In this document: positions 14,026 to 28,526 of the stretch, in pieces
How the letters are laid out: every line of letters starts with the position of its first letter
How positions within the stretch are numbered: position 1 is the stretch's first letter
NCBI RefSeq assembly: GCF_003205235.1
Contig: NZ_QJSM01000020.1
Span: 124,001 to 188,000, forward strand
Reading direction: 5' to 3'
DNA length: 64,000 nucleotides
DNA from: Thermoplasma sp. Kam2015
Lineage (GTDB): Archaea; Thermoplasmatota; Thermoplasmata; Thermoplasmatales; Thermoplasmataceae
Notes under the pieces: model-generated
What the model was told of the DNA's origin: nothing
What the model saw: the letters and a program-made list of their open reading frames with translations, nothing else
The model's database searches: none
Position numbers and translations under genes: made by a program

Positions 14026-17000
14026 TCACAGCCCGTAAGCTATGAGCAGTGTATCAAGATAGTAATTCGCCAGATCCACTGTCATGTTGAACGCATTGAA
14101 CGATCCGATGCCGACGAAATCATTCCATCCCTGTCCAAGGTAGCCGCTTCCCACCATGTTTGGATAGGGCTGCACGTAATCCACCATGTAGTACGCGGGC
14201 AGACCGAATTCGTTTCCATATCCGAGATCGTAGAGCGCGGGTTGTATCCATCCGAAGTATCCAACAGATCCATCAGCGTACACGAATGCTGATTCTATAT
14301 CTGCAAATATCCCAGCGGATATTGGAGTGGCAAAACTTGTCCCTCCAGCAACACCAAAGTAATGCTTGAATGCGAAGACCATCTTAGCTGCCGGCATGGC
14401 AATATCAGGCTGACCCCGGTTGGTGAACGTTGATGGTACAACTATCAGCTCCGAGCTCTGATATGTTGGCCTAGCGAAGAAGAAACTGTTACCTCCTCCT
14501 GATCCGACAGGGCCACCATACCAGCTGAATTCAGGCTGATACCATGCGTACTGTCCGACGATGTATCCTGACTGGTTAAGAACTGGATATACGCCTCCAA
14601 CGGACACAATGTATTCCGATGCCATGACTGTTAGATAGTAAATGCTGTGGCTGTCAGCTGATCCAAGGAATATTGTCGTACCCTCTGCTGCTGCCTGCAG
14701 CCCTATTAAGTTGTATATCTGAGCGAATCCAGCATCATGGTGGAACTGTAATTCTGCCCAGCTACCAGATATTATCTGAGGATGTATTACATTCAGCATG
14801 TAGTAGATCTCAAGGTTTATAGCATTGTCACCTATTCCCGTCAAATTGAAGGGCTGCATCACATCGTAGATGGTGGCATTTGGCGCCATGGCTCCAGACC
14901 ACTCAACATCAAGATCCGCCTCAACACCCTCTGGATATGGGTTTTTTCCATTGGGTGTAAGATTGACAAAGACGACCTGCGGATTGTGTATTCCATACTC
15001 ATCCCAGAACATGGAGATCGCGCTCATATTTGCTGATTCGCCGACGCCCAGTATTCCTATCTTGATACCGTGGCCTGTGAATCCCATATTCTCAAGCCCT
15101 GTAACGTTATAGAATTCCGCGAGGTGAACCGGCGTAAGGAGACTGCTAGAACCGTTTATACCGCTGGTTGGGACCAATGCTGTATTCGATATCTCTGTCT
15201 TGACTTCCTGCCTATTTTTAACGCTCAATAGGGCTTCGCTTGAATAGCTCAGGCCGTAGACATGCATTATGAGGCCGGAGAACTGCGCCGGTATATATGG
15301 ATTGGCAGTATTGGTCATGAATACCGCACCGCTGCCCCCCGGATACGTGAACTCGTAGTTGAACAATACCGTACCGAAGACCCTCTCAAACATTCCAACC
15401 GTTCCATGAAGCACTATGACGAGAGGAGCATAACTGTATGACCAGACCTTGAAGCCCATATTGGAATAATATGCTTCCACCTGCATGATCTGAGACTCCG
15501 ATGGATAATAATGCGCCATGAATTCCTGAGGCGTGAGATAGTCATGGAAATACGGACTCATGGGAGAATTCACAGCGGATACGAACTGTTCAAGTTCGCT
15601 GAGGTTTGTCAGGTTGAGATAAAGCGTCACGTTTATGACATCATCTGGATTGACTGGCCCAAGATTGAGTAGATACCGCTGGAAATACGGAGAGGTCATA
15701 AGATAAGGTACATTTCCATTCAGTGTGACTGAATTGGCCGGCTTCAGGTCTATGAGATTGAGCGGTTCATAGTCCCCGCCGTATTCGATCATCCCATCAT
15801 CATTGTACGGAACAGTTCCATTGAAGTTATACCAGAAGTTACCTCCCTGGTAATTTCCACCCACTATACTGCCAGTAAGAATCTGCCCATCAAACATATG
15901 AACGTTGGTGGCCGGCTGCACTGTGATGTTCCACATGTTAGTATACATGGCGGGATTTCCACTGTATATGCTGATGGATGGGCTTATGGCAGTGATCTCC
16001 GTGGAGAAGAAATTATTGTATATGGTGTTGTTTGAAGAGTATACGGCAAGCCCCAGAGGTTCACCCCAGAGATTCCATGCCTGCTCAAGCTCCGCATTGG
16101 CCAGCTTGGGCGAGTTCACAAAGTAGTTGCCCCATACCGTATTATTTGACCCTCCATATATCAATGCAGAGGAATCCATGGACATGAAGACATTGGACGA
16201 GATGAGTGAGTCCGAAGTATTCCAGAAGACCACATTGGCCAATGGCTCTCCGCTGTCATAGGCCGTGAACCAGCCAGTTATCTGGCTGTCTCTGAGGATG
16301 AAATGCGAGGATTGGAATATCCAGTAACCAAGATAATTGTACGGAATCATTCCCTCGAAGAGCGCATATTCCTGGAATATGCCCTGATACAGCACCGGTA
16401 ATGTCGGCATGCTTGAAGCCATCACATAGGCCGAAGTATTCATGAGCATGACGCCTGCAAACTGTGGGTATGAGTAATCGTTTATCTCTCCAAAGAGCGG
16501 GCTAATGTATCCATATTCATTGTTGAAGAGAACGTATGGATCAGATACAGAACCATCACCAGACATGGATATGTTCCTGATCTGGTTATTGTTAACAGCC
16601 ATCAGCGGAGTGTACAGACCGGCTGACATGTCCAGTGGAAGTACAAATGTGTTGGATGAAGACAGCATCTGTGCCTGTGCGCGGTGATCGCTGAGCAGGG
16701 CCAGAGCCGCATATTCTCCGGCTGGGAGCCAGAAGCTGTATGAACCTGAAGCCGTCAGCGGAACATAGCCTGCCTGACTGTAATTCACGACGTTACCTGG
16801 GCTTATGAACAGGAACGCATTGCTTGGACTCACATCTCCCGTGAAATGATCCATAACCTTAGCTGAAGAAACATTCCACATGCCATACAGAAGCGAGGGG
16901 CCTGTGCTTAGGATTGCCTGATCCTGAGAATTCCATGCTACGGCAGCACCAACGGACGTTTCTCCAGTATCTGTTCCGAAATCGAATGCATTTGGAACGT

Positions 17001-18042
17001 TAGCATACGATTTGGGAACAGCGGGCTTACCTGGCGGTGATGGTGGTGGAGGTGGTGCGGGAGGATGCATCGGATTGGTCGCAGAGATGTATTTCAGCTG
17101 CATCATCCCGTTAATATCGGTGAACGTCGTCGTCGATCCTCCGCCTGGGCCTCCCATCATTATCTCAGCATCATAGAGCAGTCCGGCCGGATTAAGCTGG
17201 GTTCCGCTGACCCTGAAATAGGAAGGTGGCGCTTTGTAAGCTGGCGGCATGCCATAAGTGGAGTTAAATGTCACGCGATCATATGTGCCACTAACACCTA
17301 TCGTCGGTATGGAATAGTTGAAATAGAAGACGTTATTGCCATCGATCTCTGAGGTGTTCATATAGAGCAAGAGGGTGAAGGGTGTCGGAAGATAGAATGT
17401 TGGACCAAGCGCTATGTGAACTCCTGGATACGGATATATGGTTCCGGTTGAGTTGAGTATCGCGTTGCTTGTCACCTCTGCACCTGGACTGCTGAAATTC
17501 CAGATATTATCAACGAAGCTTATTTCATGCGTTCTGACGGAGTATGTAGCCACGTTCTGAGTCCAGAAGGTATAGGATGAATTTCCGAACAGCGTCGTGT
17601 TTGCGGTAACGGTGTTGAGTTGGAATGTGAGAGATGAAGGTGCATCATCTGCAAGATTGAAGACGCTAAGATTGTTAATATCAATAACCGCCTCAAAGCT
17701 GGATGCATAATAATTGTTTCCAATCAGTGTACCTGACATGTTTTCAAGCCCGAAGAAACCTATACCCATCGGGGCAGGTGATTGCGTGTACAGTGGTTCA
17801 ACAGTTCCGTTCTGATACAGAAATCTGTGGTACTTTGCCGGAAGATAAAGATAATTATTCACTGGTTTCAGCATGCTGGTGGGTAACTGTTTCACCGGCT
17901 CTGTTTTGCCTGGGCTGCTGGCTATTCTATGCGTCGATATATTCGATGCGTCGTTGAAGGCAAAATTCACACCCAGGAAACCTGTTACAGCAATGACAGC
18001 CACAATGACTGTCAGCAGAAATATCCTTCTTTGGTTCATCAT
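14026..18042 (-). CDS. Secreted thermopsin-sedolisin double acid protease
   Basis: 1338 residues. A signal or anchor helix spans about 7-29. A thermopsin (peptidase A5)-like region, about 60-300, starts GIGFFGLENMSGTLIG. A Pro-rich linker (326-340) follows. Residues about 500-720 contain beta-helix-like turns (NNTVWGNYF, NNTIYNNFF). A pro-kumamolisin domain lies at about 775-935. The C-terminal S53 catalytic domain carries E1041 and D1045 (VEADLDVEW), the oxyanion Asp D1130 (GSADSHS) and the nucleophile S1236 (GGTSFATP). All S53 catalytic residues are present. The many N-x-S/T sequons fit an exported glycoprotein, so it is likely an extracellular acid protease that feeds peptide uptake. A TATA-like TATTTATC lies about 28 nt before the start. 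Confidence 0.85.
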   Translation of the reverse strand: MMNQRRIFLLTVIVAVIAVTGFLGVNFAFNDASNISTHRIASSPGKTEPVKQLPTSMLKPVNNYLYLPAKYHRFLYQNGTVEPLYTQSPAPMGIGFFGLENMSGTLIGNNYYASSFEAVIDINNLSVFNLADDAPSSLTFQLNTVTANTTLFGNSSYTFWTQNVATYSVRTHEISFVDNIWNFSSPGAEVTSNAILNSTGTIYPYPGVHIALGPTFYLPTPFTLLLYMNTSEIDGNNVFYFNYSIPTIGVSGTYDRVTFNSTYGMPPAYKAPPSYFRVSGTQLNPAGLLYDAEIMMGGPGGGSTTTFTDINGMMQLKYISATNPMHPPAPPPPPSPPGKPAVPKSYANVPNAFDFGTDTGETSVGAAVAWNSQDQAILSTGPSLLYGMWNVSSAKVMDHFTGDVSPSNAFLFISPGNVVNYSQAGYVPLTASGSYSFWLPAGEYAALALLSDHRAQAQMLSSSNTFVLPLDMSAGLYTPLMAVNNNQIRNISMSGDGSVSDPYVLFNNEYGYISPLFGEINDYSYPQFAGVMLMNTSAYVMASSMPTLPVLYQGIFQEYALFEGMIPYNYLGYWIFQSSHFILRDSQITGWFTAYDSGEPLANVVFWNTSDSLISSNVFMSMDSSALIYGGSNNTVWGNYFVNSPKLANAELEQAWNLWGEPLGLAVYSSNNTIYNNFFSTEITAISPSISIYSGNPAMYTNMWNITVQPATNVHMFDGQILTGSIVGGNYQGGNFWYNFNGTVPYNDDGMIEYGGDYEPLNLIDLKPANSVTLNGNVPYLMTSPYFQRYLLNLGPVNPDDVINVTLYLNLTNLSELEQFVSAVNSPMSPYFHDYLTPQEFMAHYYPSESQIMQVEAYYSNMGFKVWSYSYAPLVIVLHGTVGMFERVFGTVLFNYEFTYPGGSGAVFMTNTANPYIPAQFSGLIMHVYGLSYSSEALLSVKNRQEVKTEISNTALVPTSGINGSSSLLTPVHLAEFYNVTGLENMGFTGHGIKIGILGVGESANMSAISMFWDEYGIHNPQVVFVNLTPNGKNPYPEGVEADLDVEWSGAMAPNATIYDVMQPFNLTGIGDNAINLEIYYMLNVIHPQIISGSWAELQFHHDAGFAQIYNLIGLQAAAEGTTIFLGSADSHSIYYLTVMASEYIVSVGGVYPVLNQSGYIVGQYAWYQPEFSWYGGPVGSGGGNSFFFARPTYQSSELIVVPSTFTNRGQPDIAMPAAKMVFAFKHYFGVAGGTSFATPISAGIFADIESAFVYADGSVGYFGWIQPALYDLGYGNEFGLPAYYMVDYVQPYPNMVGSGYLGQGWNDFVGIGSFNAFNMTVDLANYYLDTLLIAYGL

Positions 18043-18193: not shown

Positions 18194-19063
18194 ATGAAAA
18201 TAATTGTTGAACCAGACGAGGGAATCGGTCCTGTAATAGATATGATAAAAAAGGCCAGGAAATTCATATATGCCAATTTCTATCTGATTGACAATGATCA
18301 GATACTCAGCGCTTTGAAGGAAAAGAAAAGGAAGAAGGTCGACGTCAGAATAATCTATGATGGTCGCCCATATGGTGAGGCAAATTTGAGTCAGGAATCG
18401 GATGCAATAAAAAATTATGGGTTAAACTACAAAACGGCTCCAAAGCAGTTTGACTCACCCGGAGTATTCGACCACGCGAAATATATGGTAAGCGAGAAGA
18501 TCGCAATAATAGGAACAGCAAATGCAACGGACGCGTCCTTTAGCAAGAACAGGGAATACATCTACATATCAAAAGACCGACGAATAAGAAAGGCTTTAAA
18601 GGCACTCTTTCTCGCTGACTGGAATGATGTAGGTACAAAACGGATAAGAATGCCACACGTACTTGTGATATCTCCCGGATCAGAGAGGATCATCTGCACG
18701 TTGATAAGAAGGGCAAAATTCATCGAAACAGAGGAGATGGGCGATGATCCTGCTGTACTGGATGCCTTGAAGAAGAGGAAGCGTATAAAAATGATACTTC
18801 CATCTTCCGTAAGTTCCGAGGACAGGCAGCGGCTTATGGAATTGAAGAAGGCCGGACTCAGGATCAGGTTGATGCCCGTCAACAAACGCTACATGCATGC
18901 CAAGATGATATACGGGGATAGGGTCTTCATAGGATCTGAGAATTTCAGCTCCACCTCCCTGAACAAAAACAGGGAAGTCGGGATAGTATTCGATGGATTT
19001 CTATCGAAGAGAAAAGTGAAACGTCACTTCAGGAAAGACTGGAAGATATCTATAAAATTCTAG
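18194..19063 (+). CDS. Phospholipase D-like (HKD) protein
   Basis: 289 residues with two PLD-type halves. The second half has a full HxKx4D motif (H235, K237, D242, then GSENFSS). The first has H94 and K96 but Glu at the Asp position (E101), followed by GTANAT. HKD enzymes cleave or transfer phosphodiesters of lipids or nucleic acids through a His intermediate. Conservation of both His-Lys pairs favours activity. No signal peptide is seen, so it is probably cytoplasmic, and a nuclease or ligase-like role is as possible as a lipid role. Confidence 0.75.
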   Translation: MKIIVEPDEGIGPVIDMIKKARKFIYANFYLIDNDQILSALKEKKRKKVDVRIIYDGRPYGEANLSQESDAIKNYGLNYKTAPKQFDSPGVFDHAKYMVSEKIAIIGTANATDASFSKNREYIYISKDRRIRKALKALFLADWNDVGTKRIRMPHVLVISPGSERIICTLIRRAKFIETEEMGDDPAVLDALKKRKRIKMILPSSVSSEDRQRLMELKKAGLRIRLMPVNKRYMHAKMIYGDRVFIGSENFSSTSLNKNREVGIVFDGFLSKRKVKRHFRKDWKISIKF

Positions 19064-19470: not shown

Positions 19471-19665
19471 GGCCAGCTTACAAAAACATCACTTAAATAG
19501 TTTATGCATGATGCGAAATCGATCGTTATGTTGGAATTCATAATTGAGAATCAATAGGAAAATAATTCCACTGCATAAGTCTTATAATCCTCAGTTTATG
19601 GGCATTGAAAGAACGTACTTTTCATTAGCCTGTCCTTAGAGAAACGATGGAACCGTCCGGTGATT

Positions 19666-19675
19666 GATATTTATC
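19666..19675 (+). promoter_or_regulatory. TATA box of the mutarotase gene
   Basis: GATATTTATC is centred about 26 nt before the ATG at 19696; no ribosome site intervenes. Confidence 0.6.
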
Positions 19676-19695: not shown

Positions 19696-20001
19696 ATGAA
19701 ATATGCATTTCATCTTAAGATAAAGGAGGGAAAGGAACTCGAATACAGAAAAAGGCATCAGAACGTGTGGCCTGAAATGCTGGATCTTCTAAGGAAAGCT
19801 GGCGTAAGAAACTATTCAATTTTCATCGAAAATCAGGATATCTTTGGATGCTGGGAATGCGATGACATTGATCATACCCTGCGCATAATAAATGAGAGTG
19901 ATGTGAACAGGAAATGGCAAGAATATATGAGCGACATAATAATTACACCGAGCGAGAGAAGAACCGCCAAGGGTATGGATGAAGTGTTCTATCTCCCATA
20001 G
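19696..20001 (+). CDS. rhaM: L-rhamnose mutarotase
   Basis: 101 residues, the family's usual length (about 104). The signature RKRHQNVWPEM holds the catalytic-type H21, and the protein ends with the characteristic EVFYLP. The enzyme interconverts alpha and beta anomers of L-rhamnose, supplying the anomer used by the dehydrogenase. It opens the rhamnose island and faces the aldolase gene convergently. A TATA box at the leaderless spacing supports the start. Confidence 0.88.
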   Translation: MKYAFHLKIKEGKELEYRKRHQNVWPEMLDLLRKAGVRNYSIFIENQDIFGCWECDDIDHTLRIINESDVNRKWQEYMSDIIITPSERRTAKGMDEVFYLP

Positions 20002-20013
20002 ATCTTACAGAAT

Positions 20014-20898
20014 TCAGAAATATAATTCAAGCACAGATATGAGAGATTCAAGTCTGCGTATGAGAATCTTTGAGAGATGCGGGCATGGTTCTCTACATCT
20101 GTAGTTGTTTATAATGCCCCTTTTTTTCAATACATACTTCTCGATCTCCACGAATCTGTCCAGATGATTCACCTCGACCTTCAGGAATTCTCTGATTTTG
20201 TCTCGATCAGCTGTATCACCGTTAAGCATCATCCTGTTCACCACATCTGGCATCGAGGATCCGATTATGCTTCCGTTTGATCCTGCTTTTCTCTCCCGTA
20301 TAATGTCGAGACCAAGGTATCCACCATAGATCGGAATATCAGGATAAGCGATTCGGATCTTTCTCATCTTGGTCACAGATCCTCTCCCCTCTATCTTGAA
20401 GCCTGCGACCTTACCTGAATATATATACCTTCTCCAGAATTCAATATCTGGCAGGTACGATGACGGGATGTTGGTATCCTGGAATATAACTGGAATATCC
20501 AGCATTTCAATAGCTTGGGAAACAAATTTTTCTACAAATTTTTTATTCAATTTGTAGAACGGAACATACTGTGGGGGCGAAATTATCAAGTAGTCAACGC
20601 CGTATTTATCCGCTACTTTAGATAGCTCTTTCATGGCGAATAATGAATTATCATTTATGCCCACCATGATCTCGCCCGACCAGAAAGTGGAGGAGGAAAG
20701 GTATTCAATTATCTTCTTTTTCTCATCCATGGTAAGTCTGTAATATTCGCCGCCAAAGATCAATATGGCCGTAGACTTTATCTTTATTTTTTCCAGAAAC
20801 TCGAGAATATCAGCCGTTTCATCATAGTTTACAGTCTGATCTTCATTAAATACCGTAGGACATGCGGACACTATACTGAAGTCCTTATGGTAGATCAT
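20014..20898 (-). CDS. DapA-family aldolase, likely 2-keto-3-deoxy-L-rhamnonate aldolase
   Basis: A (beta/alpha)8 class I aldolase of the dihydrodipicolinate synthase/KDG aldolase family, about 294 residues from the ATG at 20898. The frame is open 15 codons further, to 20943, but those residues are not typical and TATA-like sequences lie within them. The Schiff-base lysine is in AGFKIEGRG and tyrosines lie in SPPQYVPFY. In the non-phosphorylative pathway such an enzyme splits the 2-keto-3-deoxy acid to pyruvate and, for the rhamnose-derived acid, L-lactaldehyde. The rhamnose assignment rests on its place between the mutarotase and the permease. Confidence 0.78.
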   Translation of the reverse strand: MIYHKDFSIVSACPTVFNEDQTVNYDETADILEFLEKIKIKSTAILIFGGEYYRLTMDEKKKIIEYLSSSTFWSGEIMVGINDNSLFAMKELSKVADKYGVDYLIISPPQYVPFYKLNKKFVEKFVSQAIEMLDIPVIFQDTNIPSSYLPDIEFWRRYIYSGKVAGFKIEGRGSVTKMRKIRIAYPDIPIYGGYLGLDIIRERKAGSNGSIIGSSMPDVVNRMMLNGDTADRDKIREFLKVEVNHLDRFVEIEKYVLKKRGIINNYRCREPCPHLSKILIRRLESLISVLELYF

Positions 20899-21120
20899 AT
20901 AGTGATATGATTTAAACCAGAACTTAAAGGGATCGGAGAACACGTCCGGCCTCTATACGGTGAAATGAACACGTATAAACGATGGTATAATCGTCTTCAA
21001 ATGAAGGCATGAAATGCATTAGACACTAAGAATAGTCTCATATTCAGTATGGGCTTGAGCATCTAATCCTATGGATGGATAATTATGTATATATCTAATA
21101 TGGACAGGTATGATACATTC

Positions 21121-21130
21121 TTTAAATATG
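21121..21130 (+). promoter_or_regulatory. TATA box that sets the permease start
   Basis: TTTAAATATG is centred about 26 nt upstream of the ATG at 21151. It would lie inside the coding region if the in-frame ATG at 21085 were used, so it favours 21151. Confidence 0.6.
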
Positions 21131-21150
21131 CATTAGATGATAATATATAC

Positions 21151-22515
21151 ATGGCTGATAAGTCAAATCCAATCGAGATGTTAGATAACGCGAAGCTTAC
21201 TGGCACGCATGTGTCGTGGACACTGATAGCTTCCCTTGGAGACTTTCTCGATGCTGGTATGTTTGCAGGAACTGGTATAACATTATCTGCTATTTTGGCC
21301 TATCTACATGTAACGTCGACACTTCTTGCAGGCTTTCCAGCTCTGATCACCCTCCTTGGAACAGCTTTCGGAGCGCTCATTTTCGGACCACTCGGTGACA
21401 GATATGGTAGAAAATTCATTTATCAGGCTGATATGATTATTTATGCTGTTGCCGCAATACTACTCGCTTTTTCATTCAATTTCATATGGGCCATGATATT
21501 CTATGCGTTGATCGGTATAGCGGTGGGCGCTGACGTGCCGACCTCATGGTCTCTGATCTCCGAATTTGCACCTAAAGCTGGAAGAGGGAAGCTCATGACG
21601 TACACCAACATAATGTGGTACGTCGGCGTACTCGTGGAACTGGCAATAGCTATAGCGATATACAACACTGGAATCACATTATTTAGAACTATATGGATAA
21701 TGCTCGGGGTTATAGCTATAATAGCTTGGGTCTTAAGGCGCAGGCTCACAGAATCACCGAGATTTGACGTTCTGAAGGGCAGATACAAAGATCTTCACAA
21801 TGCAACAAAGGTTCTCGGTGCGGCTCAAGAGGCTGATGTTTCGGCGTCAGCCGCACCTAAATACAGAGAGTACAGATATAAGGAGCTGTTCACAAAGTAC
21901 GGTGGTCCTCTCCTCTTCGCCTGGTTCCTATATCTGATGTGGGGAATTCCTGCATCCACTTACGGTGAATTCTTCCCATACATCTTCAGCTCGCTTCATC
22001 TGGTATCTACCAGAGTAGTGTTTGCCTTCGAGGCCATTTACTTCGGTAGCGCAATAGTACCGGGTCTGCTGATATACTATTTCCTAACGGATAAGGTCGG
22101 TGTAGGCAGGTATCCACTTTATCTCACCAGTGCTGCTATGTCCGCGGTATCCTTCCTGTTGCTAGTTTACAAACCGTTCCTTTACAATGTACCAGTTCTT
22201 CTTGTGTCTTTCCTGTTGTTCGGTATAGGGCAGGGATTGGGTGTATGGCCCATCACAAGATTATATTCACTGGAGCATTTCCCCACAAGTCTGAGAAACT
22301 CAGGACAGGGTTTCGTTTGGTTCACCATGAGATTCGAGGGTGCAATATTCGGGCTGTTCACACCGCTGATCGTAAAGGCAAGTGTCACATACATTGGATG
22401 GATCGCTGGGATATTCTTCCTAGCCGCGTTCATAGTGGTCGGGATCATGGGATTCGCTGCACCCAGCTATGTGAGAACCGAAGCGAGATCTCTTGAGCAG
22501 ACTGCAGAAGAATAA
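21151..22515 (+). CDS. MFS sugar permease, probably for L-rhamnose
   Basis: 454 residues from 21151 with about 12 transmembrane segments. The sugar-porter style loop is FGPLGDRYGRKF between helices 2 and 3. Helix 1 begins SWTLIASLGDFLDAGMF, a pattern of the archaeal sugar/acid symporter group. It is likely a proton symporter in the cytoplasmic membrane. The SDR gene starts 15 nt after its stop, so the two are co-transcribed, which is the basis for the rhamnose assignment; other 6-deoxy sugars are possible. Confidence 0.8.
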   Translation: MADKSNPIEMLDNAKLTGTHVSWTLIASLGDFLDAGMFAGTGITLSAILAYLHVTSTLLAGFPALITLLGTAFGALIFGPLGDRYGRKFIYQADMIIYAVAAILLAFSFNFIWAMIFYALIGIAVGADVPTSWSLISEFAPKAGRGKLMTYTNIMWYVGVLVELAIAIAIYNTGITLFRTIWIMLGVIAIIAWVLRRRLTESPRFDVLKGRYKDLHNATKVLGAAQEADVSASAAPKYREYRYKELFTKYGGPLLFAWFLYLMWGIPASTYGEFFPYIFSSLHLVSTRVVFAFEAIYFGSAIVPGLLIYYFLTDKVGVGRYPLYLTSAAMSAVSFLLLVYKPFLYNVPVLLVSFLLFGIGQGLGVWPITRLYSLEHFPTSLRNSGQGFVWFTMRFEGAIFGLFTPLIVKASVTYIGWIAGIFFLAAFIVVGIMGFAAPSYVRTEARSLEQTAEE

Positions 22516-22529
22516 GCGAGTGATGGGAA

Positions 22530-23294
22530 ATGTTGGATTTCAAGGGAAAAAATGCTGTAATTACGGGAGGATCCAGGGGAATCGGTAGGGCGATTGCTCT
22601 GGGTCTCGCCAAGCAGGGCGCCAACATACTGATAAGCTATGCATCTCATGACTCAGAGGCCGATGAAGTGTTGGAAGCTGCTAGAGGCTTCGGAGTCAAA
22701 GCATACAAGGTTAAAGTGGATCAAAGTGACCCATATGAGAGTATTCGATTCGCAGATAAGGCCATTGAAATGCTTGGCAAGGTTCACGTGCTTGTTGATA
22801 ACGCAGGCATATGTCCTTTCGAAAATTTTTTCAAGATAAGCGTTGATCTGTTTGAAAAAGTATGGAAAGTGAACGTTGAAAGCCATTATTTCATAACACA
22901 GCGCATAGCCAGTAACATGATCGAGAACAAGATCAAGGGAAGGATATTGCTGATAAGCTCTATCAGCGCACATGTTGGCGGAGAATTTCAGACCCATTAT
23001 ACTACAACTAAATCCGCTCTGAATGGTTTCATGCATTCCATAGCCATAGTCCTTGGAAAGTATGGGATACTCGTAAACAGCCTAGAACCTGGAACTATAC
23101 TAACAGATATAAATAAGGAGGATCTTTCTAACAAGGAAAAACGCGAATACATGGAACGCAGGACGGTGGTTGGCAGGCTGGGATTGCCGGAAGACATGGT
23201 TGCCCCTGCGCTTTTCCTTGTATCGGATGATAATACCTATGTGACTGGTACGGAACTGCTGGCCGATGGGGGTATGCTCATAAATCTTCAATAG
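22530..23294 (+). CDS. SDR-type L-rhamnose 1-dehydrogenase
   Basis: 254-residue short-chain dehydrogenase: nucleotide motif GGSRGIGRA at 13-21, DNAG in place of NNAG (about 90), the catalytic Ser around 143-144, and Y157/K161 (YTTTK). It oxidises L-rhamnose to L-rhamnono-lactone with NAD(P). From memory, an SDR L-rhamnose dehydrogenase has been characterised from Thermoplasma acidophilum, and the operon context here agrees. The start follows the permease stop by 14 nt, with GTGATGGG just before the ATG acting as the ribosome site. Confidence 0.85.
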   Translation: MLDFKGKNAVITGGSRGIGRAIALGLAKQGANILISYASHDSEADEVLEAARGFGVKAYKVKVDQSDPYESIRFADKAIEMLGKVHVLVDNAGICPFENFFKISVDLFEKVWKVNVESHYFITQRIASNMIENKIKGRILLISSISAHVGGEFQTHYTTTKSALNGFMHSIAIVLGKYGILVNSLEPGTILTDINKEDLSNKEKREYMERRTVVGRLGLPEDMVAPALFLVSDDNTYVTGTELLADGGMLINLQ

Positions 23295-23383
23295 AGTAGA
23301 AAAAATATTCCTATATTTTTAACAAATAAGATTTATGTTAATGAAGTTAGTAAATATTAAATAATGTTCTAATATACTTAACT

Positions 23384-24103
23384 ATGATACTCAAATATGC
23401 TCCGAGGAATCTTGATGATAAATTTTCAATGGTATATTTCAGGATGACTCATGATAACTGCTGGAGCAGAATCACGGAAAACTATGATGTGATGGTACAT
23501 ACATTGAAGCTTTTGCCATTTAAGGACAGAGATGTCATATATGGCCTATTTGAGCTTAAGGTTAAGGGTAAGCATACCCTGCGAGATTTCATGCGAGAAT
23601 TAAGCAGATCCGGTACCGTGAAGAAACTTGTAGGACTCAGCATTAGTGAACTTAAGGGAAACGTTTACATAGTGGATCTTTACGAAACGTACAGCGGCAT
23701 GATACAGGGAAAACTCAGTGATTACAATAGTATCTTTGACTTTGATCTTGTCAAACACGGCGTAGAGGAAAAATATGCAGTCATACCTTCGGAGAACGTG
23801 AATGATCTAAAGAACGAGCTGCAAACGCTAGGGCACGTTTATGAATTCAGGGCGAAATATTTCCCTAATTTCTATGAGGTTCTGATGCCCTATTTCAACT
23901 TCTCACCAATTGAGATGCAGATCATGCTGGAAGCATATAATCAGGGTTATTATGATATACCGCGGAGAGCAGGAATCAGGGAGATTGCTGAATATTTCGG
24001 ACTTTCCAAGTCAACTGTTCAGGAATATATAAGGAATGCAGAATCGAAGACCATGACGAGCATGAAGCTCTTCAAACTGATGAATGATCTCAAAAGACTA
24101 TGA
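23384..24103 (+). CDS. HTH_10 (bacterio-opsin activator-type) transcription regulator
   Basis: 239 residues. An N-terminal sensor domain of about 180 residues has no recognised fold. The C-terminal HTH_10 domain begins at about 182: SPIEMQIMLEAYNQGYYDIP, followed by IREIAEYFGLSKSTVQEYI as the helix-turn-helix. A TATA-like AATATTAAAT lies about 28 nt before the ATG. Its place in the middle of the rhamnose genes makes it the likely pathway regulator. Its own promoter and single-gene layout fit a locally acting regulator. Confidence 0.8.
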   Translation: MILKYAPRNLDDKFSMVYFRMTHDNCWSRITENYDVMVHTLKLLPFKDRDVIYGLFELKVKGKHTLRDFMRELSRSGTVKKLVGLSISELKGNVYIVDLYETYSGMIQGKLSDYNSIFDFDLVKHGVEEKYAVIPSENVNDLKNELQTLGHVYEFRAKYFPNFYEVLMPYFNFSPIEMQIMLEAYNQGYYDIPRRAGIREIAEYFGLSKSTVQEYIRNAESKTMTSMKLFKLMNDLKRL

Positions 24104-24498
24104 TCTTCGCGAACGATTAGGCATGAACGCAAGCAGCATTTAAGGAGAAGTGAAGGACTTGGAGGGAGCTGTAATTCTCCTTCTTCGGACAGGAGATACA
24201 CGGATCTCTTCCAATAGAATGATTTATAGACTGTCTTTTCATAATTTTTCCATCATCCACGATAAACAAGTGGATGACGCTCGAGCAGGATCTGTGCGAT
24301 CCGAAGCTTCAGCTTAGAAGTCATTCACTTGATATTCCATAGATGCAAAATATGTATTGTAAAGGATATCTGAGACCATGAGATATTGATCGTGCATGAT
24401 CAACCTATGAATAGAAATCCCCGAAATTACGGATTCGGCTCATATACGGCTAATGATCCTTCTATGCTGATGGTGGACGTTTCCGATTATACCTTTTT
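24104..24498. other. Intergenic region with IS605-like right-end remnant
   Basis: About 400 bases with no gene. Its middle holds a hairpin (24253-24260 TCATCCAC pairing with 24270-24277 GTGGATGA, 9-nt loop), a GGATC/GATCC stem-loop near 24288-24302, and a sequence similar to the right end of the TnpB element (see the separate entry). The last 25 bases form the promoter of the MDR gene. Confidence 0.5.
24251..24328 (+). mobile_element. Possible solo IS200/IS605-type right end
   Basis: CGAAGCTTCAGCTTAGAAG followed by TCATTCAC at 24302-24328 resembles the sequence after tnpB at 8535-8571 (GAAGCTCCGATGCTTTAGC then TTAGGAGTAGCTCAC). Both share GAAGCT, AGCTTAG, AGT and a terminal TCAC. Stem-loops lie directly upstream, as expected of a TnpB guide-RNA scaffold end. 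No tnpB is nearby, so this would be a remnant or a non-autonomous copy. Confidence 0.35.
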
Positions 24499-24501
24499 AT
24501 G
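24493..24501 (+). promoter_or_regulatory. TATA box of the MDR dehydrogenase gene
   Basis: CTTTTTATG is centred about 23 nt before the ATG at 24520. It overlaps the upstream in-frame ATG at 24499, which is therefore unlikely to be the start. Confidence 0.5.
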
Positions 24502-24519
24502 TGTGTTAAAAATAGTTAC

Positions 24520-25518
24520 ATGGCGATAACAACGAAGGCATTGATTTGGACCGATATTAGAAAGATGGCTGTTGAGGATAGGGAGCCAGAAGATCCAAAA
24601 CCTGGATTCGTCACGCTGAAGGTGAACTATTCCGGGATATGCGGTTCTGAACTGTCCGCGTTCGTTGGTCAGAACGAACTCAGAAAGCCTCCCTCGATAA
24701 TGGGTCATGAATTCACAGGCAAGGTTGTCAAGGTAGGATCAGATTCCGATAGATATCTCTTAGGGAAAAACGTTGCAGTGAATCCCCTTGTCACATGTGG
24801 AAAATGCAGATACTGCAGAACTGGTAACAGACAGCTTTGTCCAGAGAGAAAATTGATAGGTGTCGACTATCCCGGAGGCTTTGAGGAATACGTCAACGTA
24901 CCGGACTATTCATGCTATGAGATAGTTGAGAAGCCTGAGGGATCGCTTGCTGAACCTCTTGCCACTGCGTTCAGGGCAGTCTTCCATGCTATGCCAGAGA
25001 TTGACGATAGGGCCCTCATAATAGGTGCAGGAACAATTGGACTGCTGTCTACAAAATTACTGGAGACTTACGGGACCGTTGATCGCGTGGTTGTCGATAT
25101 CAATGATTTCAGGCTTGAACATGCATTGCACTGGGGAGCCACAAAAGTGATAAACAACAAGAAAGAGAAGGGCATACCAAAGGACTTCGATGTCGTTATA
25201 GATGCCGTGGGCACTCAGGATACAAGGATGATGGCGATCAACTCTGTCGCCCGGGGCGGCCGGATTGTTTTCGTCGGTCTGCATGAACCGCAGGCAGCAG
25301 TGCCCATCAACTATATGATAAGAAGCGAGATCGAAACATACGGCTCATTCTGCTACTCTGATGATAATTTCAGAAGATCGGTCGATCTCATCAACAGGGG
25401 TTTTCTCGATATAAACGAGAGATGGTACGACATCAGGCCCCTGGAAAAAGGTGAAGATTCTTTCAATGAGGAGCTTTCTCCAGAGTCCAGATATTCGAAG
25501 ATCATACTGAAACCATAG
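24520..25518 (+). CDS. Zinc MDR dehydrogenase, candidate 2-keto-3-deoxy-L-rhamnonate 4-dehydrogenase
   Basis: 332 residues from the ATG at 24520. It is a medium-chain dehydrogenase with the catalytic zinc residues in GICGSE and GHEF, the structural zinc site CGKCRYCRTGNRQLC (C-x2-C-x2-C-x7-C), and the Rossmann motif IIGAGTIGLL. The FAH-type hydrolase starts 8 nt after its stop. In the diketo-hydrolase route, a dehydrogenase oxidises C4 of the keto-deoxy acid to give the hydrolase substrate. MDR enzymes with this activity are known from acidophiles, as far as I recall. Other secondary alcohols are possible substrates. Confidence 0.78.
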   Translation: MAITTKALIWTDIRKMAVEDREPEDPKPGFVTLKVNYSGICGSELSAFVGQNELRKPPSIMGHEFTGKVVKVGSDSDRYLLGKNVAVNPLVTCGKCRYCRTGNRQLCPERKLIGVDYPGGFEEYVNVPDYSCYEIVEKPEGSLAEPLATAFRAVFHAMPEIDDRALIIGAGTIGLLSTKLLETYGTVDRVVVDINDFRLEHALHWGATKVINNKKEKGIPKDFDVVIDAVGTQDTRMMAINSVARGGRIVFVGLHEPQAAVPINYMIRSEIETYGSFCYSDDNFRRSVDLINRGFLDINERWYDIRPLEKGEDSFNEELSPESRYSKIILKP

Positions 25519-25526
25519 GGATAAAC

Positions 25527-26387
25527 ATGAAGACACTCAATTTCCTATCTGAACATGGCCCTGCCGGAGCTATCGCCCGGGGCGATGCTATCTATCCATT
25601 CAGCGAGATAGCCAGATTCATGAGTAAATTCAAGGATTTCACTGTAACAGATGATCTCATCGCATCAGATGTTGATCTGAACGAGGTTGATAGATCGATA
25701 GACGATCATATTGATGAATTGTCTGGAAAAAATATGAAAGACGTTAAGATCCTGTCTCCCGTATTGAGGCCGAAAAAAATACTGTGCATCGGTGTCAATT
25801 ATCGAGAACATGCCAAGGAGTCAAAGCAGAGCGTAATGGAGTATCCCACCATATTCTCAAAGTTTCCGGATAGCGTCATAGGCACTGGCGAAAATATAAG
25901 ACCGCCAAGCGACGTAACGCAACTGGACTATGAGGGGGAACTGGTCGTGGTCATAGGCCGCGAACGCGGTAAATCAGGAGATCGCATCTTTGGATACACC
26001 GTGGGAAACGACGTATCAGCACGCGATCTGCAGTTCAGGACGTCGCAATGGCTTCTTGGAAAGGCTCTTCCCACCTTCGCACCCATCGGGCCTCTGATCA
26101 CGGGTAAAAACGAGCTGGGAGATGCTGAAAATCTTAGAATTCAGACGAAGGTCAACGGCCAGGTCAGGCAGGATGGAAATACCGCTGATATGATATTCAA
26201 TGTTCCGAAGATAATAGAATACCTATCCAGATATTTCAGACTGGAGCCTGGAGACCTGGTATTTACAGGAACACCAGAAGGGGTGATCCTCGGAATGCCG
26301 GAAGAAAAGCGGGTGTGGCTGAAGCATGGAGATGTCATAGAGGTGAACATAACCGGCATAGGAACGCTCACTAACGCAGTGGAATAG
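25527..26387 (+). CDS. FAH-family hydrolase, candidate 2,4-diketo-3-deoxy-L-rhamnonate hydrolase
   Basis: 286 residues. N-terminal region of about 75 residues, then the fumarylacetoacetate-hydrolase fold: KILCIGVNYREHAKE at about 85, metal ligands E136 and E138 (DYEGE) and D162 (GNDVSARD), then LGKALPTFAPIGP and FTGTPEGV. The family cleaves C-C bonds of diketo acids. In the L-rhamnose diketo-hydrolase pathway it yields pyruvate and L-lactate. It is in an operon with the MDR dehydrogenase just upstream and convergent with the MBL gene. Confidence 0.82.
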   Translation: MKTLNFLSEHGPAGAIARGDAIYPFSEIARFMSKFKDFTVTDDLIASDVDLNEVDRSIDDHIDELSGKNMKDVKILSPVLRPKKILCIGVNYREHAKESKQSVMEYPTIFSKFPDSVIGTGENIRPPSDVTQLDYEGELVVVIGRERGKSGDRIFGYTVGNDVSARDLQFRTSQWLLGKALPTFAPIGPLITGKNELGDAENLRIQTKVNGQVRQDGNTADMIFNVPKIIEYLSRYFRLEPGDLVFTGTPEGVILGMPEEKRVWLKHGDVIEVNITGIGTLTNAVE

Positions 26388-26392
26388 TCAGG

Positions 26393-27154
26393 TCATTCTA
26401 TCTGAAGGCCGTCTATGGATGGATCATAGGCAGGGAGTAAATTGCCTATTTTTTCAATTTTCTCGTATGCGGAAAGGCATTCATAGATATCCTCGGCTAT
26501 CCCGATTGGTATCTTCCTGGCAAGATTCTCAGCCTTAAATGACGCATCCGTGAAGACATATTTACCAGAATTCGTGTTTATTATAAATGCTACAGATGAT
26601 CTGTGATGGCATCCCACAGGAATGGCCCTTATACCCGGAACAAGCTCCACTTCACCATCATAGAAAATTACGTTCTTCCAGCCTTCACCGTAGATGAAAT
26701 CAAAGATCTTCCTCGGTATGAAGAGATCTCTGTTGTGAAAATATGCAAATGCAGGAGCAGCTATGTCCTTTATCCATCCATCCCTGTATATGAATATCCT
26801 TGATCTTCTGAACTCGTCGAGACGGCCAACTGTGTAATCCTGAACCGGTGTGAATGCTATGAAGTCTATATTGTCCGGATCGAATCCAGCATCATGGATC
26901 ACAGATATTGTGTCTAGCGATCTGAACAGGGCTCTATCGCCGGCGAACTTCCTCATCTCCTCGTTTCTCAGGCTGAGATCAAGCGGCATACCTGTATTTA
27001 TCATGAATGTACGATGATCATTGTATGCCAGCACCACGTGGAATGATAATTGCTCCCAGGTCCAGAAGTCCTTCATCCAGAAAACCTCTGCCCCTGGAAC
27101 CTCAGATTCGCCAACCTTCAACACCTTGATTGAATAAACTTCCTCAGAGGTCAT
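26393..27154 (-). CDS. MBL-fold protein lacking the metal motif
   Basis: 253 residues with the layout of a metallo-beta-lactamase/lactonase-type protein: HVVLAYNDHRTFMINTG (strands 1-2), a later CHHRSS and VFTDAS. The HxHxDH metal motif is replaced by FTPVQDYTVG (102-111), and the late His is replaced in PAYDPS. It should therefore not bind the usual two zinc ions. It overlaps the dehydratase stop by 11 nt, so it is translationally coupled. A role with the rhamnono-lactone (binding, or an unusual lactonase) is inference from position only. Confidence 0.7.
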   Translation of the reverse strand: MTSEEVYSIKVLKVGESEVPGAEVFWMKDFWTWEQLSFHVVLAYNDHRTFMINTGMPLDLSLRNEEMRKFAGDRALFRSLDTISVIHDAGFDPDNIDFIAFTPVQDYTVGRLDEFRRSRIFIYRDGWIKDIAAPAFAYFHNRDLFIPRKIFDFIYGEGWKNVIFYDGEVELVPGIRAIPVGCHHRSSVAFIINTNSGKYVFTDASFKAENLARKIPIGIAEDIYECLSAYEKIEKIGNLLPAYDPSIDGLQIE

Positions 27155-28256
27155 ATCTTATCCCGAATCCTGCATCCTTTCCGAGCGTGAACCTTGCATT
27201 GACAGGTTTGGGTACATTCACTATATGCTGCTCCATCCAGTCTCTGTATCTTGTCAGATACTCTGCCATGGGCGTGATGGCCTCAGGCTCAGAGGCTATG
27301 AAGTGAAGGTTGTATATATTTCCGGCGTGCGGAATGACCTGAGCACCATATGACTCAGCCAGTCCAGCTATCTTCTTCATCGGTGTTATTCCACCGACCC
27401 AGGTTGCATCAGGCTGCAAAATCGTCACTCCTGCATCCAATAGGCGTTTGAAATCAAATACATGATAATGGTGTTCGCCTGCTGAGATTGGAATTTCCAC
27501 CTTCCTCGTCAGCCTTGCATAGCCTTCGAAATCATCCGGTAGAAGCGGCTCCTCTATCCATGCAAGTTCATATTTTTCCAAAGCTCTTATCATTTTGTAA
27601 GCGAAATTGTAGTTGAGAGACATCCAGAAGTCTCCGGCTAGGTTGACAGAGTATCCAACGACATCCCTTATCACCTTGACAAGCTGCAGGTTCTTTTCCA
27701 CTGCATATGGATCGGAAGGCGAAGCTATGAATCTCATCTTCATGTCCGTGTATCCCTCTTCGAGATAGCCTCTTGCTTCAGCCTCGAGATTTTCCTCCTT
27801 ATCTGGATGCAGATGGCTTGCATAGGCCCTAATCTCATGCCTTGTGGAACCACCGATGAGATTATACACCGGTACACCTATCTCCTTGGCGTAGGCGTCG
27901 TACATCAGCAGGTTGATCGCGCTTATAGCGTGCAAGGCAAGACCTGATCGGCCGTTCGGGAGCGTGATCCTGTAAAGGAAATCCCATGCCTTGCTGATCT
28001 CTGAGACATCGAAGAGCTTTACATATTTTCTTATGCCATCGAGATAGTTCCAAACAGGTTCAGTCACGGAGATTATGCTTTCTGTTCCATTCTCCGTCCT
28101 CATCTTTACAAAAACTATATTCGTGATCATAGCTGCCTCAGCAGGTGAAACCTCCCCTATCATATCTTTGTAGTAATCGGTTGGCTTTGTATATGGAAAT
28201 ACCTGCTGTGACACCTTTTCTTCTGTTATCTTTTCAATAGAAGCTATCTTGCTCAT
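27144..28256 (-). CDS. Enolase-superfamily sugar-acid dehydratase, likely L-rhamnonate dehydratase
   Basis: 370 residues from the ATG at 28256. The frame is open 56 codons further, but a TATA-like TTATTTTA about 25 nt before 28256 and the typical N-terminus favour the shorter form. Mandelate-racemase group features: TDMKMRF (catalytic Lys/Arg), metal ligands in AGDFWMS, IEEPL and SAGEHH, and the late His in VIPHAGN. It removes water from the aldonic acid to give the 2-keto-3-deoxy acid. SAGEHHYH and DATWVGGIT resemble rhamnonate dehydratases more than gluconate dehydratases. Confidence 0.82.
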   Translation of the reverse strand: MSKIASIEKITEEKVSQQVFPYTKPTDYYKDMIGEVSPAEAAMITNIVFVKMRTENGTESIISVTEPVWNYLDGIRKYVKLFDVSEISKAWDFLYRITLPNGRSGLALHAISAINLLMYDAYAKEIGVPVYNLIGGSTRHEIRAYASHLHPDKEENLEAEARGYLEEGYTDMKMRFIASPSDPYAVEKNLQLVKVIRDVVGYSVNLAGDFWMSLNYNFAYKMIRALEKYELAWIEEPLLPDDFEGYARLTRKVEIPISAGEHHYHVFDFKRLLDAGVTILQPDATWVGGITPMKKIAGLAESYGAQVIPHAGNIYNLHFIASEPEAITPMAEYLTRYRDWMEQHIVNVPKPVNARFTLGKDAGFGIRYDL

Positions 28257-28526
28257 GATAATAACAAGATCAATCAATAAAATAAGGTTATTACCGTACT
28301 TGTCCACGAACGGATCGATTATCCTATCAATATATGAAGACATGGAGAAGGAAACGCTGAAGATATCATGAAAATACGGGCAGATCTTAGCTACAATATA
28401 TGGGATGATATTCTCCGAATGCAAGATTCTTATTTTTCATAAATATGGTATATCGTTACATAATATACGATCATGGATCATCGTCATATTGGATAAGATT
28501 AAAGCCATCAAAGGGAATATGATAAT

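Follow-up and report, generated by a model that had tools for sequence, protein, structure and literature searches.

An L-rhamnose gene cluster of Thermoplasma with two predicted exits from one intermediate, one of them through a Gln-type DapA-superfamily protein

We analysed a 64,000-nucleotide stretch of the genome (1.79 Mb) of Thermoplasma sp. Kam2015 (contig NZ_QJSM01000020.1, positions 124,001 to 188,000; this whole stretch is called the window), in which positions 19696-28256 hold a gene cluster that a sequence-only reading had taken to be an L-rhamnose island. Computation of gene content, active-site residues, co-occurrence and promoter elements bears this out: the SDR-family dehydrogenase passes a curated model, the genes are intact, and their arrangement recurs in relatives. 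On balance we favour the view that the cluster encodes a single non-phosphorylative pathway for L-rhamnose under common regulation, in which the last common intermediate, 2-keto-3-deoxy-L-rhamnonate (KDR), is served by two enzymes. More tentatively, we propose that one of these two represents a new catalytic subgroup within the DapA/NAL superfamily, forming a Schiff base but lacking the Tyr proton shuttle. It would act on KDR either by Glu-based retro-aldol cleavage or by a dehydration that opens a third end of L-rhamnose breakdown, and in Thermoplasma it would run alongside an oxidising exit within a single regulon.

Results

In the proposed pathway, L-rhamnose would be taken up by an MFS permease (21085-22515, plus strand, likely start 21151; PF00083), whose orthologues are 67-94% identical in all clusters, with anomer exchange by the L-rhamnose mutarotase RhaM (19696-20001, plus strand; PF05336, 92 bits). 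The SDR (22530-23294, plus strand) would carry out an NADP-linked oxidation to the lactone, an MBL-fold protein (26393-27154, minus strand) would probably open the lactone, and a dehydratase (27144-28256, minus strand, start taken from homologues) would convert rhamnonate to KDR. At the first exit, an MDR that is probably a KDR 4-dehydrogenase (24499-25518, plus strand, likely start 24520) would oxidise KDR at C4, and an FAH-family protein (25527-26387, plus strand; PF01557) would cleave the resulting diketo acid to pyruvate and L-lactate, the latter being oxidisable by the cell's LutAB-type system. At the second, KDR would be bound as a Schiff base on Lys183 of a Gln-type DapA/NAL-superfamily protein (20014-20943, minus strand, likely start 20898; PF00701) and, somewhat more probably than being dehydrated, cleaved to pyruvate and L-lactaldehyde at a site that relies on Glu and not on Tyr; the two exits would be expressed together. 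Apart from the substrate of the SDR, which comes from a curated equivalog, the substrates named here are predictions, as are the lactonase, the chemistry of the second exit and the regulation, for which the cluster offers an HTH_10 regulator (23384-24103, plus strand; PF04967). All the genes listed in the sequence-only reading are present, open and intact at these coordinates, and the end that it gave to the cluster, 28256, is the dehydratase start backed by homologues; its inventory was incomplete only in omitting the MBL-fold gene, which overlaps the dehydratase gene by 11 nt. The gene-order comparison with other Thermoplasmatales that it had proposed shows the same gene content and order in T. 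acidophilum (genome G098, presumably strain DSM 1728) and in another Thermoplasma, while the exits vary across the order.

The second exit is tied to the pathway by its distribution. The DapA-type gene occurs in 14 of the 117 genomes of the order, all 14 being among the 19 that have the dehydratase (hypergeometric p 2.5e-14 over the 117 genomes, relatedness not corrected). It forms a convergent pair with rhaM in the window and in G067-G069, and in G067 and G069 this pair stands 36-41 kb from the remaining genes. No MDR orthologue was found in G067-G069, and in six good assemblies without MDR/FAH orthologues (G060, G066, G067, G068, G069 and G089; G108 and G109, also without MDR, were left out of this count as incomplete assemblies) the DapA-type protein is the sole exit encoded by the cluster. 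By gene distribution and neighbourhood we assign this protein to the rhamnose pathway, and to that extent the earlier claim of two exits for one pathway stands, although the identity of the second as a conventional aldolase does not. One could instead envision a leftover gene, or a binding protein with no catalytic role in rhamnose breakdown, since the gene is missing from G095 and G104 with no visible loss of the remaining genes, and its sequence diverges more quickly than those around it (51-54% identity from one Thermoplasma species to another, as compared to 91-94% for the SDR); given the strict co-occurrence with the dehydratase, and a Schiff-base Lys, a Gln and a Glu that are invariant in 13 of 13 aligned members across genera, we consider this very improbable.

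The label "DapA-type aldolase" in the sequence-only reading holds as a superfamily name only. Like archaeal KDG/KDPG aldolase (KDGA), the window protein belongs to the superfamily and has the Schiff-base lysine (K183, invariant in its family), but it has neither the GT[TN]G nor the YN motif of KDGA: in every member of the family Gln takes the position of the catalytic Tyr of the YN motif, and [GA]GE[YFH]Y that of the GxxG motif, while 12 of 12 KDGA-like controls from the same genomes keep both Tyr and GxxG. With both features gone in every member, the protein is not a conventional aldolase; a separate KDGA-like gene lies elsewhere in the same genome (G000:C19:40385-41206). The nearest characterised relative is a dehydratase, the dehydratase of L-KDA (L-2-keto-3-deoxyarabinonate, identical with 2-keto-3-deoxy-L-lyxonate) from Azospirillum brasilense (3FKK/7C0C), for which a review (PMC9795676) describes Gln143 at the position of Tyr, Lys171, and two bases, Glu173 and Glu200. 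Superfamily, fold and the equivalents of Gln143, Lys171 and Glu173 are common to this enzyme and the window protein; however, the latter is only ~15% identical to it, has a GGE[YFH]Y-type motif for FSEQF and stands among rhamnose genes, and no member has an equivalent of Glu200, the base proposed to act at C5, this place being occupied by GG[YM][LV]G. With Gln, Lys and Glu173 present and Glu200 absent, we therefore place the Gln-type proteins by their residues in a third, uncharacterised subgroup. The best PDB profile match (8.7e-30) is 3DZ1, an uncharacterised protein of Rhodopseudomonas palustris which, as in the window protein, has Gln at the place of Tyr, a KxE and no Glu200; its look-alikes on rhizobial plasmids are found among amino-acid-type or unrelated genes. 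A structure model computed with one relative (pLDDT 58) matches the DapA/NAL fold, with Z scores of 15-18 for aldolases and 7C0C alike and hence no distinction between them.

What reaction these proteins catalyse can be argued in either direction. Were the Gln-type protein a dehydratase like the L-KDA enzyme, KDR would go to 2,5-dioxohexanoate or an enone, and there would be no cleaving exit; the invariance of the Gln143, Lys171 and Glu173 equivalents, Glu173 being described as special to that enzyme, and the second rank of 7C0C among the PDB profile matches are consistent with this. Aldol cleavage is nevertheless slightly favoured, although this is not proof, because G064, whose sole PF00701 protein is an ordinary KDG aldolase, has that protein beside the dehydratase, so that a real aldolase can fill the exit role; because LutAB-type lactate-oxidation genes still adjoin the SDR in the G089 cluster, which has the Gln-type exit only; and because the ketone from dehydration would have no evident use or next step. 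Together with the loss of Glu200, these observations make a dehydratase rather unlikely in our judgement.

Alternatively, the Gln-type protein could serve another sugar acid arising through this dehydrogenase and this dehydratase, most notably L-KDA derived from L-lyxose, which it would convert to ketoglutarate semialdehyde, leaving MDR and FAH as the only exit for KDR. The T. acidophilum SDR does oxidise L-lyxose and L-mannose too (PMC12028159), L-lyxonate would be expected to yield the substrate of L-KDA dehydratase, and it is on L-KDA that the nearest characterised relative acts; moreover, bacterial relatives adjoin ketoglutarate semialdehyde or other aldehyde dehydrogenases, and five aldehyde dehydrogenase-family matches are present in the Kam2015 genome. 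The window's cluster, however, contains no semialdehyde dehydrogenase gene, Glu200 is missing here as well, and in the six good assemblies without MDR/FAH orthologues, where it is paired with rhaM, the Gln-type protein would be the only way out of the cluster's own pathway; we thus regard this alternative as unlikely and retain the Gln-type protein as a second enzyme for KDR.

That the MDR and FAH proteins form an oxidising exit to pyruvate and L-lactate, as the sequence-only reading had suggested, is well supported by domain content and neighbouring genes. The MDR carries PF08240 and PF00107, the two domains stated for the enzyme of Sulfobacillus (PMC5674754), in which, as cited in PMC5674754 and PMC6336799, an MDR-superfamily KDR dehydrogenase has been characterised (Bae 2015, a paper whose title, as cited there, points to archaeal rhamnose metabolism). 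That lactate is the product gains new support from G102, G104 and G107, where a pair encoding a CCG-domain (LutA-like) protein and a LutB/LldF-like L-lactate oxidation protein starts ~45 bp downstream of FAH; Haloferax is impaired in growth on rhamnose when its LudBC pair is deleted (PMC8305020). We rejected the mere presence of FAH as a pathway marker, as relatives 46-53% identical occur in genomes without the dehydratase; one such FAH relative, at locus L060, has unrelated neighbours.

In the T. acidophilum record (G098), the MDR gene (L080 10810-11798) is undamaged except for a single-base frameshift, which represents either an error of sequencing or a recent loss. In T. volcanium (G101, which we take to be strain GSS1), all that remains is the HTH_10 gene and a chimeric frame (L082 7697-8800) joining the first ~200 residues of the MDR, with one zinc-site Cys changed to Arg, to a C-terminal portion of the rhamnose dehydrogenase; the frame lies behind the retained HTH_10 gene and the promoter element described below, and is a relic of the lost rhamnose pathway.

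At the front of the pathway, the SDR scores 474.8 bits on NF041159, the Thermoplasmatales L-rhamnose 1-dehydrogenase equivalog (cut-off 450), and is 94% identical to its G098 orthologue. The dehydratase keeps the metal-binding acids and active-site His (GDFW, IEEP, GEHH and PHAG, in register with 3ssz/3sqs), residues that mark it as an enolase-superfamily sugar-acid dehydratase. The MBL-fold protein has a profile match of 1.2e-12 to an MBL protein, its family has an invariant GCHHR and one invariant Asp, and a structure model of it alone reached no more than pLDDT 33. Because its gene is found beside that of the dehydratase in 19 of 19 relative loci (in G060 with the DapA-type gene standing between the two), it is the best lactonase candidate, and it probably opens rhamnonolactone.

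The sequence-only reading had considered a switch between a reducing and an oxidising branch. The two exits do differ in their chemistry, one reducing a cofactor and the other not; however, the cluster has a single regulator gene, and in Thermoplasma the same promoter element, GGAC-N15-TTTWWD (GGAC-N15-TATA), precedes both units at similar distances, so that alternatives governed by redox state or energy supply seem highly doubtful. The element stands before the DapA-type gene (20923-20947, minus strand), the permease and SDR genes (21102-21126, plus strand) and the MDR and FAH genes (24475-24499, plus strand), with variants before the dehydratase and MBL-fold genes (GGAC...TTATT, 28281-28305, minus strand) and before rhaM (GGAA...TATTTA, 19649-19673, plus strand); the elements lie about 45-50 nt from the inferred starts, or 60 nt in the case of one uncertain start. 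T. acidophilum and G099 show the same arrangement, G095 shows part of it, and in G100 the DapA-type gene has lost the element together with its exchanged neighbours. Three of its 37 matches in the Kam2015 genome are in the cluster (expected 0.16, P 6e-4, a post hoc value); the pattern read backwards gives 69 matches, and the element is therefore not enriched genome-wide. It also lies ~57-59 nt before lutAB in 5 of 5 Thermoplasma genomes, including T. volcanium (L182 4018-4042, that is G000:C18:204517-204541; also L183, L184, L186 and L187). The same element before both exits and lutAB argues for joint expression of the exits and lactate use rather than a switch, and such joint expression is what we predict. 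The palindrome-like ACCGGACGGT was considered as an operator and rejected, not being enriched.

Both exits are present in the window, G098, G099, G100, G102 and G106, and the MDR and FAH genes without the DapA-type gene in G095 and G104. An ordinary KDGA adjoins the dehydratase in G064 and G066, the latter having the Gln type too, on another contig; in G042 and G043 neither exit was found in the cluster. In G100, the MDR, MBL-fold protein and dehydratase are 95-97% identical to those of the window and the FAH and DapA-type proteins 89%, while two other MFS genes and a gene of the PF04199 cyclase family stand in place of the permease/SDR block (L081 1370-4778); no rhaM was seen there and the rest of the pathway is kept, so the exchanged block perhaps reflects a different entry compound. 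The closest named relative in a GTDB scan is "Thermoplasma sp. isolate FL", with an SDR 91% identical and the sole close relative found there. Upstream of the cluster, a 1338-aa frame (14026-18042, minus strand) resembles, by eye, a secreted protease of the sedolisin type that includes a repeat region, and 18194-19063 (plus strand) encodes a PLD-family protein with a weak match to DrmC of DISARM (59.8 bits, cut-off 133).

Discussion

The rhamnose regulon is real and well conserved, and most of its parts are of known kinds. The expected chemistry is that of the diketo-hydrolase L-rhamnose pathway of Sphingomonas (LRA5/LRA6) and Haloferax volcanii (Reinhardt 2019, as cited in PMC8305020), in which dehydrogenase, lactonase, dehydratase, KDR dehydrogenase and diketo hydrolase lead to lactate. 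In contrast to Sphingomonas, where the KDR dehydrogenase is an SDR, the Thermoplasma cluster has an MDR, which we liken to that of Sulfobacillus thermosulfidooxidans by its domains only; in contrast to both systems, it has an MBL-fold lactonase candidate, an extra Gln-type DapA-superfamily gene and an HTH_10 regulator. A genome reconstruction of SAR202 bacteria already draws rhamnose ending in "lactate or lactaldehyde" (PMC10444878). What is new here is that two exits share one promoter-linked cluster, that one of them is a Gln-type enzyme of the DapA superfamily, and that the MBL partner lacks the zinc motif.

Several observations weigh against the pathway as we propose it. The best models for two of its enzymes are matched below their cut-offs: NF011968 (L-rhamnonate dehydratase) by the dehydratase at 201.4 bits, with a cut-off of 393, and NF053535 (2,4-didehydro-3-deoxy-L-rhamnonate hydrolase), the best NCBIfam model of FAH, at 176.4 bits, with a cut-off of 500. 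The HxHxDH zinc motif of AiiA-type metallo-lactonases is absent in the MBL family, which has an invariant TPxQDYT instead, and if the protein is a lactonase its mechanism would therefore be unlike that of AiiA. To these must be added the loss of Tyr and GxxG at the second exit. The GGAC-N15-TATA element was found by inspecting conserved promoters and was not predicted beforehand; when 12-mers were searched without bias for a common operator, nothing rose above shuffles. Finally, among these proteins, biochemical data were found in the literature for the T. acidophilum SDR only.

If the proposed pathway is correct, one regulon holds two enzymes for one intermediate, and the relatives give natural variation with which to test why. 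Shifts between C-C cleavage and dehydration within the DapA superfamily could then be understood through the Gln-type enzyme, and its MBL-fold partner might represent an aldonolactonase of a new kind, lacking the customary zinc motif. From the promoter element one would predict an archaeal regulon linking rhamnose breakdown with lactate oxidation.

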